NCBI GenBank assembly: GCA_944327245.1
Contig: CALVHD010000003.1
Coordinates: 1 to 64,000, forward strand
Direction: 5' to 3'
Length of the DNA: 64,000 bases
Source of the DNA: Candidatus Gastranaerophilales bacterium
GTDB lineage: Bacteria; Cyanobacteriota; Vampirovibrionia; Gastranaerophilales; Gastranaerophilaceae
Shown: positions 4,310 to 60,692 of the stretch, in pieces
Layout of the letters: every line of letters begins with the position of its first letter
How positions within the stretch are numbered: position 1 is the stretch's first letter
Made by a program: the position numbers and the translations under genes
Notes under the pieces: generated by a model
The model's input: the letters and a program-made list of their open reading frames with translations, nothing else
What the model was told of the DNA's origin: nothing
Database searches by the model: none

Positions 4310-4324
4310 ATATTAATTTTACAA

Positions 4325-5257: not shown

Positions 5258-5344
5258 ATTTTCCCCTTAATAATAGTTACTGTACTATATATTTCACTAT
5301 AAACAATGTTTGAAGTCAATATTTTTTTGCTTTTAGTTATTTTA

Positions 5345-5374
5345 TTATTAACTTTTGTAAAAATGTTATATAAT
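5345..5374 (+). promoter_or_regulatory. Sigma-70-like promoter for a predicted leaderless gene
   Basis: TTATTA (5345-5350) and TATAAT (5369-5374) are 18 bp apart. The ATG at 5381 follows the -10 box after only 6 nt, where transcription should start, and no Shine-Dalgarno sequence is present. Confidence 0.5.
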
Positions 5375-5380
5375 TTAATT

Positions 5381-6882
<1,502 letters not shown>

Positions 6883-19781: not shown

Positions 19782-19810
19782 TTGCTAAACGTAAATTTTT
19801 TAACTATTAT
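19782..19810 (+). promoter_or_regulatory. Promoter of rsgA, predicted to give a leaderless mRNA
   Basis: TTGCTA (19782-19787) and TATTAT (19805-19810) are spaced by 17 bp. The rsgA ATG begins 6 nt after the -10 box, so transcription should start at or next to the A of ATG. No Shine-Dalgarno sequence is present. Confidence 0.6.
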
Positions 19811-19816
19811 TAAACT

Positions 19817-20821
19817 ATGCAAGCACAGGTATACAAAATACATTCGGATTTTTATTATGTTAAGAATTTTAAACATGATGTATTTGTTTGCAAATTAAGA
19901 GAAATTTTAAAAAAACAAAAAATCGATATTGTGGTTGGGGATTTTGTTGAATTAAGCGAAGATAGAAATTTTATTGTTTCAAGATTGGAGCGTAAAAATT
20001 CGCTTTTAAGGCCAAAAGTTGCAAATATCGATTGCATGCTTGTGGTTTGTTCTATTAGGGAGCCGGAGCTTGATTTAGTTCAGTTAAATCGTTATTTGGC
20101 TTATTTAAAATATAACAATATTAATTGTGCAATTTGTATTAACAAGGAAGATTTAGAAGAAAACTTAGATACCAAAAAACAAGAAATTAAGGCGATTTAT
20201 GAAAAATTAAATTATAAAATATTTTTTATCAGTGCAAAAAATAAGCTTGATTTAGATGATTTAAAAGATTTTATAAAAGGCAAATTGATTGCTTTATGCG
20301 GTTTGTCGGGAGTCGGTAAATCAACTTTGTTAAACAGTTTAAATCCTGATATTTCTCTTAGGACAAACAAGGTTTCGCTAAAAACGCAAAGAGGATGTCA
20401 TACAACAAGGCATTGTGAAATTATTGAATTTGGTGAATTTAAAATTATGGACACTCCGGGGTTTTCAAATTTGAAATTTGATTTTTTACTGCCTGAAAAA
20501 ATTATAGACTTATTTGAAGATATAAAATTGTATTCAGGTAAGTGCAAATATGCGAATTGCCTGCATAATGTTTGTCAAGAGGGTATCTGTTCTATTTTTG
20601 ATAATTTAGATAAAATCGATAAATCAAGATATGAAAGTTATTTGTTGTTTTTAAACGAAGCTCTTCAATATCGTGAACTTATTTCAAAAAGAAGTATAAA
20701 AGAAGAAAGCTTAAACAAAAAAATAGGCAACAGGACGGGTTTAAAAATTTCCAAAAGAAAAAGGGCAGTTTCAAGAAATACTGAAAAACAAAAAATAAAA
20801 GGTGAAAACAATGAAAATTGA
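19817..20821 (+). CDS. rsgA: Ribosome small-subunit biogenesis GTPase RsgA
   Basis: The circularly permuted GTPase order is visible: NKED (G4) at 109-112, then GLSGVGKST (G1) at 162-170, then DTPG (G3) at 212-215. An N-terminal OB-fold and a C-terminal zinc site (C243, C248, H250, C253 or C258) complete the protein. RsgA helps 16S maturation at the decoding site. The 334-residue protein ends in a very basic tail. It appears leaderless and overlaps ispA by 11 bp. Confidence 0.95.
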   Translation: MQAQVYKIHSDFYYVKNFKHDVFVCKLREILKKQKIDIVVGDFVELSEDRNFIVSRLERKNSLLRPKVANIDCMLVVCSIREPELDLVQLNRYLAYLKYNNINCAICINKEDLEENLDTKKQEIKAIYEKLNYKIFFISAKNKLDLDDLKDFIKGKLIALCGLSGVGKSTLLNSLNPDISLRTNKVSLKTQRGCHTTRHCEIIEFGEFKIMDTPGFSNLKFDFLLPEKIIDLFEDIKLYSGKCKYANCLHNVCQEGICSIFDNLDKIDKSRYESYLLFLNEALQYRELISKRSIKEESLNKKIGNRTGLKISKRKRAVSRNTEKQKIKGENNEN

Positions 20822-22352: not shown

Positions 22353-22464
22353 TTTAACCTCGTTCATAATCTTTATTTAATAATTTATTTTGATTAGTCA
22401 AATTAATTATAAATTTTTTTTGTTGGTTTTTGCTCCTTAATTTTGTTATGGTTTAATAATAAAT

Positions 22465-23211
22465 ATGGACAATGTTTTAAATGAAACTTATACAAAAGAG
22501 CAGTATGAAAGTTTTTTCGATGAAATTTCATATGATGAAATAATGACTAATTTAAAAAACGAAAATACTGATGATTTTAAAAAAATTTTTTCCATAATTA
22601 ATCTTTCAGAATTTTTATCTGAAAATGATTTTATTATATTTATTAATCATTTAACTAATCATACAACTCCTATAAGAGAAGTTGTTGCATATAAACTTGA
22701 AGAATTTACTAAAGATTACAAGGGCTATTTTCTTAATGAATTTTCAAAAAATAAACTCTTAGATGGAATAATTGATATTAATCCTAATATTTCAAGAGCT
22801 GTTTGCAATGTAATTAATTTAATTAACGAATTGAAACCTGATTTTGAGACAGAAATAATTAAAAGAATAGATGAATTATTGTTCAAAATAAAAGAATACC
22901 AAAATTCCACAGGTGATTTATTTGATAATGATAAAAAAAATCGCAAAAACCATGCCAAAAATAAAAAATTGTTTTCTCTTTATTGGTACTTAGAGGCTCT
23001 TTCTGTTTGTGCAAGTAATAAAAATTATGAAAAAATTATTGAAATATTAAAAAATACAATAAAATTTTGTGATTATACAATTAGAGAAAAAACAGCTAAA
23101 ATCCTTATAAAAATAGATAATGCACCAATTGAATTATTACAAATCGCAAAAAAAGACCAAAATTTTTATGTAAAAAATCAAGTTTATGATAAAATTAACT
23201 TTGAAGACTAG
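22465..23211 (+). CDS. HEAT-like alpha-helical repeat protein
   Basis: The 248-residue, all-helical, acidic N-terminal protein has HEAT-like pairs such as TTPIREVVAYKLEEF, NPNISRAVCNVINLI and CDYTIREKTAKILIKI. It lacks a signal peptide. No Shine-Dalgarno is seen. TTGCTC (22430-22435) and TTTAAT (22452-22457) form a promoter whose -10 box ends 7 nt before the ATG, so it may be leaderless. It lies 17 bp ahead of efp and could share its transcript. Confidence 0.65.
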   Translation: MDNVLNETYTKEQYESFFDEISYDEIMTNLKNENTDDFKKIFSIINLSEFLSENDFIIFINHLTNHTTPIREVVAYKLEEFTKDYKGYFLNEFSKNKLLDGIIDINPNISRAVCNVINLINELKPDFETEIIKRIDELLFKIKEYQNSTGDLFDNDKKNRKNHAKNKKLFSLYWYLEALSVCASNKNYEKIIEILKNTIKFCDYTIREKTAKILIKIDNAPIELLQIAKKDQNFYVKNQVYDKINFED

Positions 23212-29883: not shown

Positions 29884-30023
29884 TTTTTTGTCCTTTTTTG
29901 TTAGTTGTTCTAGCATATTCCATAATATATTAAACAAAAATATTAAACAAGTACTTTAGGTAAAGATTTATTAACAAAACTTATTTTTATATTATATTAT
30001 TTTATTTTATAATACTGTTTGAA

Positions 30024-42696: not shown

Positions 42697-42726
42697 TTGT
42701 TAAATAATTTAATAATATGTTATATT
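42697..42726 (+). promoter_or_regulatory. Promoter of the TrpD-like gene, predicted leaderless
   Basis: TTGTTA (42697-42702) and TATATT (42721-42726) are separated by 18 bp. The ATG at 42733 is 6 nt after the -10 box and no ribosome site is present. Confidence 0.58.
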
Positions 42727-43760: not shown

Positions 43761-43789
43761 TTGAACGTAAATTAAATTGAAATTATAAT
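43761..43789 (+). promoter_or_regulatory. Promoter of the putative outer-membrane protein gene
   Basis: TTGAAC (43761-43766) and a perfect TATAAT (43784-43789) have the ideal 17-bp spacing. Transcription should begin about 5 nt before the ATG at 43801, leaving no room for a ribosome site. Confidence 0.7.
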
Positions 43790-43800
43790 ATTATTCTGGT

Positions 43801-44547
43801 ATGAGAAAAATTTATACATGTTTAATATTTTGTTTTTTGGCTTTTGTTAGTCATCCTTGTTTTGCAAAATCTCAACAGGAGGAATATCAAAATGATACAT
43901 TGTATTCTCAGGAATATTTTGATTATTTAATAGAATGTGCTTCTTGCGATTACCAAAAAGAACAGGAAAAACAAAAACAAAAAGAAAAAGATGAAATAAC
44001 ATTGTCTGATGAGTCAATTTCTCAAGACGAAACCCAAGAACAGGATTATATTTCTGATAATTATGAACCTTTTAAATTAAAAATAGAAAATTATGATGTT
44101 GGTAAATATTCTGAAACTTATATAAAAGAAAATAGCAAGACTTTAATTCCTGTTGGTGACAGATTTAGTTTTATGCAAGATACTTTGCAATATAGAAATA
44201 AATACAATAGCAATGATTATCGAATTTTGGCAGGTGCCGAATATAAAATTAACAGGTTTTTAAATCTAACGAGCGGACTCGAAACAAATTATCGAGGATA
44301 TGACCAAAATCCTACATCTAGAAAACTTTATTTTACGCCTGTTATAAAAATCGGTGATAAGTTATCTATAAGTTTTCACAATAAGTTTGATACTTCAACA
44401 CATTCTCAAGACCATGACATTGGTTTAAGCGTTTCACCTTTTAAATCTAAAGCTTTAGACTTTGGTGTATATGCTGGTTCTACTCAGCAGCAGGGCGGTG
44501 CGCACAGCGAGAGTATAAATTTTTCAACTAATTTTTATTTCTTTTAG
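43801..44547 (+). CDS. Putative outer-membrane beta-barrel protein
   Basis: The 248-residue protein has a signal peptide ending CFA-K. An acidic Gln/Glu/Lys-rich region (about 24-85) and about eight alternating strands from residue 100 onward follow. The end NFSTNFYFF, with an aromatic last residue, is typical of outer-membrane barrels. A CxxC pair (ECASC) sits near residue 40. No family is recognised. Its last 4 bp overlap the convergent gene. Confidence 0.65.
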   Translation: MRKIYTCLIFCFLAFVSHPCFAKSQQEEYQNDTLYSQEYFDYLIECASCDYQKEQEKQKQKEKDEITLSDESISQDETQEQDYISDNYEPFKLKIENYDVGKYSETYIKENSKTLIPVGDRFSFMQDTLQYRNKYNSNDYRILAGAEYKINRFLNLTSGLETNYRGYDQNPTSRKLYFTPVIKIGDKLSISFHNKFDTSTHSQDHDIGLSVSPFKSKALDFGVYAGSTQQQGGAHSESINFSTNFYFF

Positions 44548-47036: not shown

Positions 47037-47074
47037 ATTTTAAGTATATATGAATACTTTTAAAATGCCAAATA

Positions 47075-58617: not shown

Positions 58618-59949
58618 TTATTCTCCCATAATATTTTTTATTTTTTCTATTTCATTTATGGCTCTTTTTGAGCGTAATTCATTTTTGTATTTTTTGTCTT
58701 TTAGTTTTCTTTTATCGCCTTCTATTTCTTTTGTTATCCCCCAGTTGGAATTTATTGGCTGAAATTTTTTATGACCTTCAAATGTAATATAATCAATAAG
58801 CGCACCGAGCATTGTTGTGTTGTTCAGTTCAATTAAGGGCTTTTGTTTGATAAATCTGTCCATATTTATTGCGGCAAATAATCCCGTGGAAATGCTTTCG
58901 CAATATCCTTCCACTCCTGTAATTTGACCTGCAAAGAATAGATTTTTATATTTTTTTGTTTGAAGATATTTGTTTAGAATTTTTGGCGAATTAATAAATG
59001 TGTTTGCATGCATTACCCCGTATCTTGTAATTATTGCATTTTCCAAAGGCGGTATGCTTTGTATTAATTTTTTTTGTTCGCCCCATTTTAAATTTGTTTG
59101 AAAACCTACTAAATTATATAGATTTGCCATTTTGTCGTCTTGTCTTAGCTGTACTACAGCATAAAATTGATTTTTTTTGAATTGCGTTTCGATTCTTTTG
59201 TCAAAAAGCCCTACAGGTTTCATTGGTCCAAATCTTAGAGTATCTTTTCCTCTGGATGCCATTACTTCTATCGGCATACATCCTTCAAAGTAGCTTGCTT
59301 CAAATTCTTTTAACGGGGCTCTTTCTGCATTAATCAAAATATCGTAGAAATTTTCATATTCTTCTTTTGTCATAGGACAATTGATGAAGTCGGCTTCCCC
59401 TTTGTCCCATCTTGATGCGTAAAAGGCTTTATTAAAATCAATAGAGTCTTTTTCGATAATTGGCGCTATTGCATCATAAAAATGAAAATCTTCTTCGCCG
59501 AATTCTTCTTTAATATTACATGCCAGTTCTTTTGCGCTCAGAGGCCCTGTTGCTATGATAGTCGGTATAGATGGGTCAATTTTTTCATATTTTTCATTAA
59601 TTTGCGTAATATTGTTAAAGGAATTAATTATTTTTTTAATTTCCCTGCAAAAACCAAATCTATCAATAGACAGTGAGTTTCCCGAGGGGACTTTATTTTT
59701 TATTGCTGTTGGAAATAAAACCGAGCCTAAAATTATTGCTTCTTGTTTTAGTAAGCCTGAGGCAGATAAAATATCTGAAGAACCCAGAGAGTTTGAACAT
59801 ACAAATTCTGCAGGGTAATCTGTTGTATGAGCTCCTGTTTGGTATTTTGGGCGCATTTCGTACAGTTCAATATCGTATCCTTTTTTGGCTAAATATATAG
59901 CAGCTTCGCTGCCTGCCAATCCTGCCCCTATTACTCTGATTTTATTCAT
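58618..59949 (-). CDS. trmFO: Methylenetetrahydrofolate-tRNA (uracil-54) methyltransferase TrmFO
   Basis: The start ATG at 59949 gives MNKIRVIGAGLAGSEAA, the FAD-binding motif. The 443-residue enzyme methylates U54 in the T loop with folate as methyl donor. Other landmarks are YEMRP, EFVCSNSLGS, SRWDKGEADFINCPM and GQITGVEGYCESI. The -10 box TATAAT is 6 nt before the ATG, so it looks leaderless. It pairs with pepA. Confidence 0.93.
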   Translation of the reverse strand: MNKIRVIGAGLAGSEAAIYLAKKGYDIELYEMRPKYQTGAHTTDYPAEFVCSNSLGSSDILSASGLLKQEAIILGSVLFPTAIKNKVPSGNSLSIDRFGFCREIKKIINSFNNITQINEKYEKIDPSIPTIIATGPLSAKELACNIKEEFGEEDFHFYDAIAPIIEKDSIDFNKAFYASRWDKGEADFINCPMTKEEYENFYDILINAERAPLKEFEASYFEGCMPIEVMASRGKDTLRFGPMKPVGLFDKRIETQFKKNQFYAVVQLRQDDKMANLYNLVGFQTNLKWGEQKKLIQSIPPLENAIITRYGVMHANTFINSPKILNKYLQTKKYKNLFFAGQITGVEGYCESISTGLFAAINMDRFIKQKPLIELNNTTMLGALIDYITFEGHKKFQPINSNWGITKEIEGDKRKLKDKKYKNELRSKRAINEIEKIKNIMGE

Positions 59950-60005
59950 AAAATTATTATACATTAAATAAAATAAAAGTTTTCTTAATATAATTTAATC
60001 TTTTC

Positions 60006-60656: not shown

Positions 60657-60692
60657 AAATTAATTCTAACCTAAATTTGTATTTTTACATAA

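Follow-up and report, generated by a model that had tools for sequence, protein, structure and literature searches.

Candidate leaderless genes with a -10 box six nucleotides before the ATG in a Gastranaerophilales genome

Does the ATG of rsgA, which follows a promoter-like array at a distance of only six nucleotides, also mark the first nucleotide of its mRNA, and is this arrangement shared by other genes of the same bacterium? The original prediction, made on a window of 64,000 nucleotides (the whole stretch of DNA that was analysed), proposed such a leaderless class at six loci, beside genes with good ribosome-binding sites. The array before rsgA is as it was described, with TTGCTA, 17 bp, TATTAT, 6 nt and ATG, and it is the sole exact match to this pattern in the genome. 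In sigma-70 geometry, a distance of six nucleotides between hexamer and ATG makes the first base of this codon the +1 nucleotide. Searches with trmFO assign the window to the Gastranaerophilales, a non-photosynthetic gut lineage of Cyanobacteriota; the source genome has 1.70 Mb in 45 contigs, with 30% GC.

Over 1.55 Mb of this genome we called 1474 genes with a home-made caller that uses a codon-pair model and coding potential only. The caller favours ATG and ignores the upstream sequence when choosing starts, so that start choice is independent of any promoter or Shine-Dalgarno (SD) site. A TATAAT-like box was defined as TAxxxT (TANNNT) with at most one mismatch. SD sites were found at 52% of genes, compared with 9% in shifted control windows. 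A search for the SSU rRNA (16S, carrying the anti-SD) gave no match in the source genome and 20 genomes of its genus; several of these 21 assemblies are rated 99% complete, and the gene may be unbinned.

Among genes with upstream gaps of at least 25 nt, the box was found 6 nt before the ATG in 82 of the 387 without SD, where 7.8 were expected by chance, versus 4 of the 401 with SD (Fisher p = 2e-22). Measured against neighbouring spacings, the peak at 6 nt had a Poisson p of 2e-53 and that at 7 nt a p of 2e-7. The comparison with shuffled upstream sequence, proposed along with the original prediction as its check, left the peak in place: operon-first ATG genes without SD had 46 boxes at 6 nt in 270 genes, versus a mean of 5.8 and a maximum of 9 in 30 dinucleotide shuffles, and 18 boxes at 7 nt versus a shuffled mean of 5.4. 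Operon-first genes with SD were at chance level (4/304 at 6 nt, 4.2 expected). The coexistence of two initiation modes, also predicted, was thus borne out, with the -10/N6/ATG class confined to genes without SD.

The same spacing was enriched in tandem genes separated by 30-80 nt (26/162, 2.6 expected) and in short-gap genes without SD (14/201, 1.8 expected), which suggests that these boxes may be internal promoters. Internal in-frame ATGs gave no peak (47 of 8461 with a box at 6 nt, inside the range of neighbouring spacings), and GTG or TTG starts without SD had the box at 6 nt in 2 of 80 cases, a count to be read with the ATG preference of the caller in mind. When genes were re-started at an alternative in-frame ATG, boxes at exactly 6 nt were again in excess (20 versus about 5). 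Net of background, we count about 85 genes with the box at 6 nt and 18 with it at 7 nt, plus 15 whose box precedes such an alternative ATG. The predicted leaderless genes are therefore estimated at roughly 115-120 of 1474, about 8% or some 1 in 12, next to an SD class of about half of the genes. Since about 1 in 10 of the 6-nt boxes is expected by chance, the leaderless status of single genes is unproven. A secondary peak at 11-12 nt was considered as a class with 5-nt leaders and rejected: more than half of the boxes at 11 nt (16 of 29) reflect, in a shifted register, an extended -10 (TATGnTATAAT or TATAGTATAAT) in genes that also have a box at 6 nt.

The sites in the window are collected in Table 1. 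Those before the ATGs at 5381, 42733, 59949 and 60656 are present as described. At 22465 the hexamer is found at its predicted spacing, and it is the weakest box, outside TANNNT. A leader of 4-5 nt had been predicted for the genes at 43801 and 30024; for the latter the position of the box does imply about 4 nt, if this box is used. For 43801 the TATAAT at 11 nt is real, but a second box at 6 nt had been overlooked, and a zero-nucleotide leader is possible. Protein family searches matched RsgA, TrmFO and the TrpD-like (glycosyltransferase-3), DivIC/FtsB-like and PLD-like proteins, and gave no match for the proteins at 5306/5381, 22465 and 43801. The coding-only caller missed the predicted leaderless start at 5381, 59949, 60656 and 43801.

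Table 1. Predicted promoter elements and associated genes in the window.
Feature	Position	Strand	Remarks
TAAAAT, further candidate class member	4316..4321	-	6 nt before ATG 4309
-10 TATAAT, hypothetical protein	5369..5374	+	6 nt before ATG 5381; alternative in-frame start
-35 TTGCTA of rsgA	19782..19787	+	17 bp upstream of -10; TTG and 17-bp spacer in several diverged orthologues
-10 TATTAT of rsgA	19805..19810	+	6 nt before ATG 19817; same spacing in orthologues of 53-66% identity
rsgA, ribosome small subunit-dependent GTPase A, predicted leaderless	19817..20821	+	TIGR00157 5.5e-60, PF03193 2.3e-51
Weak -10-like TTTAAT	22452..22457	+	7 nt before ATG 22465, TATGG ahead; fails TANNNT
Box of candidate member with 7-nt spacing	29924..29929	-	before ATG 29916
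TATAAT, PLD-like protein	30008..30013	+	10 nt before ATG 30024
-10 TATATT, TrpD-like protein	42721..42726	+	6 nt before ATG 42733
TATTAT	43789..43794	+	6 nt before ATG 43801; overlaps TATAAT at 11 nt
TATACT, further candidate class member	47043..47048	-	6 nt before ATG 47036
trmFO	58618..59949	-	TIGR00137 9e-166; true start 59949, not longest-ORF start 59964
-10 TATAAT of trmFO	59956..59961	-	6 nt before ATG 59949; spacing kept in 18 orthologues
-10 TAGAAT, DivIC/FtsB-like protein	60663..60668	-	6 nt before ATG 60656

For motif tests we used the 95 genes with a box at 6 nt and the 28 with a box at 7 nt. The 95 show TTG at -34/-32 and TATGn ahead of the box. Of the 95, 28 have a -35 TTG separated from the box by 16-18 bp, versus 45 of 671 other starts (p = 1.4e-9), and 27 have an extended -10 (TGn), versus 30 of 463 comparison starts (p = 1e-8). 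Pyrimidines occupy -1 in 90 of the 95 (95%) and in 26 of the 28, versus 234 of 463 other no-SD starts (p = 4e-18 and 6e-6, respectively). The spacing of the box, the -35, the extended -10 and the pyrimidine at -1 together make the A of the ATG the predicted transcription start, and the initiator signature (-1 pyrimidine, +1 A) with the -35 and the extended -10 supports reading the box as a promoter, not as a translation enhancer.

Orthologues of rsgA and trmFO point in the same direction. Most of the 30 rsgA orthologues (48-66% identity) have a box 6-10 nt before the ATG; several of those at 53-66% identity keep the whole TTG/17 bp/-10/6 nt/ATG array, and three are SD-led. In seven (L144, L146, L153, L159, L160, L164 and L165) the box is 9-10 nt before the ATG, which would imply leaders of 3-4 nt. 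The trmFO orthologues, whose counts are linked by descent and are not independent events, comprise 17 with the box at 6 nt and no SD, one with the box at 6 nt and an SD, nine with the box elsewhere and an SD, and three with the box elsewhere and no SD. An SD accompanies 9 of the 10 boxes that are 17 nt or further from the ATG on its upstream side; two other orthologues have the box at 10 nt and no SD. In the 18 relatives with exactly 6 nt, spacer and flanks vary. The alignments thus support the view that orthologues hold the exact spacing amid divergence and probably acquire an SD as the spacing lengthens. In another Gastranaerophilales set (L040, L042-L044, L046-L056, L059), trmFO has an apparent TTG start (ATTTTG) after a GAGGAG-like site and apparently lies within the operon of an upstream gene.

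The trmFO promoter, ATGTATAATAATTTT (59949-59964, minus strand), translates in frame as MYNNF, so that annotation by the longest ORF would give the protein a false N-terminus. The upstream frame has stops or lacks an ATG in relatives (e.g. L022, L023).

Could these observations be explained otherwise? TATAAT-like hexamers are common in such an AT-rich genome, about 2% of starts having one at any given offset in the shuffles, and matches picked by eye might owe their spacing to chance. The tenfold excess at one offset, its absence from the controls and its conservation among relatives make this extremely improbable; chance matching is already refuted for the class and may still account for individual weak sites like that at 22465. 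The AT richness also allows the box to be regarded as an AT-rich translation-enhancing element, acting through S1 or in the non-SD initiation of Bacteroidetes type, with transcription starting further upstream, and upstream AT biases that cannot simply be assigned to promoters have been described in some phyla (Nakagawa 2017, PMC5397173). The class does not fit the Bacteroidetes type, an AT-rich upstream signal without promoter architecture. Its single fixed spacing of 6, less often 7 nt, TANNNT core, well-placed -35, extended -10 and pyrimidine at -1, and the trmFO box that shifts away where an SD leader appears, leave the enhancer reading improbable.

It could further be argued that the promoters are real and the ATG at +1 is no start, translation beginning further downstream, at a codon that has a leader of its own. 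An A at +1 may have TG after it by chance, and alternative in-frame starts exist in a minority of the class. Against this, intergenic non-start ATGs rise only slightly at 6 nt (58 of 2826, versus about 44), and orthologues retain the ATG, which agrees with the N-terminus of the RsgA and TrmFO proteins; this makes a downstream start very improbable.

We consider it highly probable that the genes with -10/N6/ATG are leaderless, with a primary-sigma promoter positioned to start transcription at the A of the ATG. The phased promoter, its exclusivity towards SD, its conservation and its spread are read from sequence, and from them we infer the actual 5ʹ ends and a leaderless ribosome pathway. The promoter would consist of a -35 TTGnnn, about 17 bp and a TATAAT-type -10, often extended by TGn, with a pyrimidine preferred at -1. 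As the A of the ATG would be +1, the mRNA would begin at AUG, with no SD, and translation would presumably proceed by direct binding of the 70S ribosome (or 30S-tRNA) to the 5ʹ-terminal AUG. This mode would serve about 8% of genes, mostly the first in their transcription units, and these are probably not highly expressed, judging from codon bias and family content.

Sampled members of the class include CoaE, NAD kinase, Maf, UPF0102, a MutS2-like protein, an MgsA/RarA-like ATPase, U32 peptidases and homoserine dehydrogenase, among others; among the SD-first genes are EF-G, ribosomal protein S20, ferritin, PPDK and a pyruvate:ferredoxin oxidoreductase subunit. Not one of 80 predicted leaderless genes ranked in the highest tenth of the codon score, versus 17% of SD-first genes (p = 1e-7), with a small circularity in that the score was built from five abundant-protein genes chosen within the SD-first sample. 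One gene of the class (L098:15668-16621) has a match to LdpA_C (Light dependent period A), a family of the cyanobacterial clock input; its host is a non-photosynthetic gut bacterium. At two places in the source genome (G000; C4 49660-50476 and C26 1018-5205) both genes of a divergent pair belong to the class, with back-to-back putative promoters in gaps of 61 and 120 nt.

The spread among relatives was followed by the ratio of TATAAT-N6-ATG to TATAAT-N9-ATG, with some of the sums taken from a chosen subset of the genomes listed and copied by hand. The ratio was about 2.0 in the source family (46 genomes among those listed), 1.5 in another family of the same class, 2.2-4 in some other Cyanobacteriota families without PF00124 reaction-centre genes and 2.2 in the non-photosynthetic family f6; in the larger photosynthetic families it was 0.97-1.2, with no detectable signal. 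An f6 genome of 51% GC (G018) had five boxes at 6 nt, two at 7 nt and almost none at other spacings, and a non-photosynthetic genome of 22% GC (G047) showed a broad weak rise at 6-9 nt. The sole photosynthetic genome profiled gene by gene (G022) gave no 6-nt peak. Leaderless expression may be old and conserved in non-photosynthetic Cyanobacteriota, retained at particular housekeeping genes of modest expression, rsgA and trmFO among them; as a conserved class it would be largely missing from the photosynthetic lineages. Orthologous promoters would switch between leaderless and SD-led forms as a leader of 10-20 nt is gained or lost. We put this forward tentatively, at somewhat less than an even chance.

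Our literature search, itself incomplete, found no report of leaderless genes in Melainabacteria/Gastranaerophilales, and an earlier computational prediction is possible. The analysis would place an uncultured gut lineage among the bacteria that have leaderless genes as a genome-wide class, and because this well-sampled family holds leaderless and SD-led orthologues side by side, the switch between them can be studied. For annotation, it matters that predicted leaderless starts escape coding-only calling and that a portion of the trmFO promoter can pass for an N-terminal extension.

The class is of a kind known in bacteria, in a lineage new for it. In Zheng 2011 (PMC3160421), TA-led genes are reported in 207 of 953 bacterial genomes, as widespread and not dominant, with shares of about 20% in Actinobacteria and about 40% in Deinococcus-Thermus; Cyanobacteria are missing from the TA-led groups listed there, and Gastranaerophilales are not named in the sections consulted. 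The genes described here resemble the TA-led genes of that survey in having a TA-like signal some 10 bp ahead of the start codon and no SD, in standing side by side with SD-led genes, in orthologues that change to SD and, as in its low-GC genomes, in a TAtAAT with an upstream TG peak; their box is phased and above background, with TANNNT, initiator context and -35 at starts that lack SD. In the same phylum, Synechocystis 6714 has 48 leaderless mRNAs, whose transcripts map at the start codon or within the preceding 10 nt, of which 6 are common to strain 6803 (PMC5386190), whereas here the spacing at trmFO and rsgA is held family-wide. As in Actinobacteria and Deinococcus-Thermus, the class is genome-wide, with the putative promoter fused to the start codon; unlike the shares given for those phyla, it comprises about 8% of genes, at 30% GC and beside a strong SD class.
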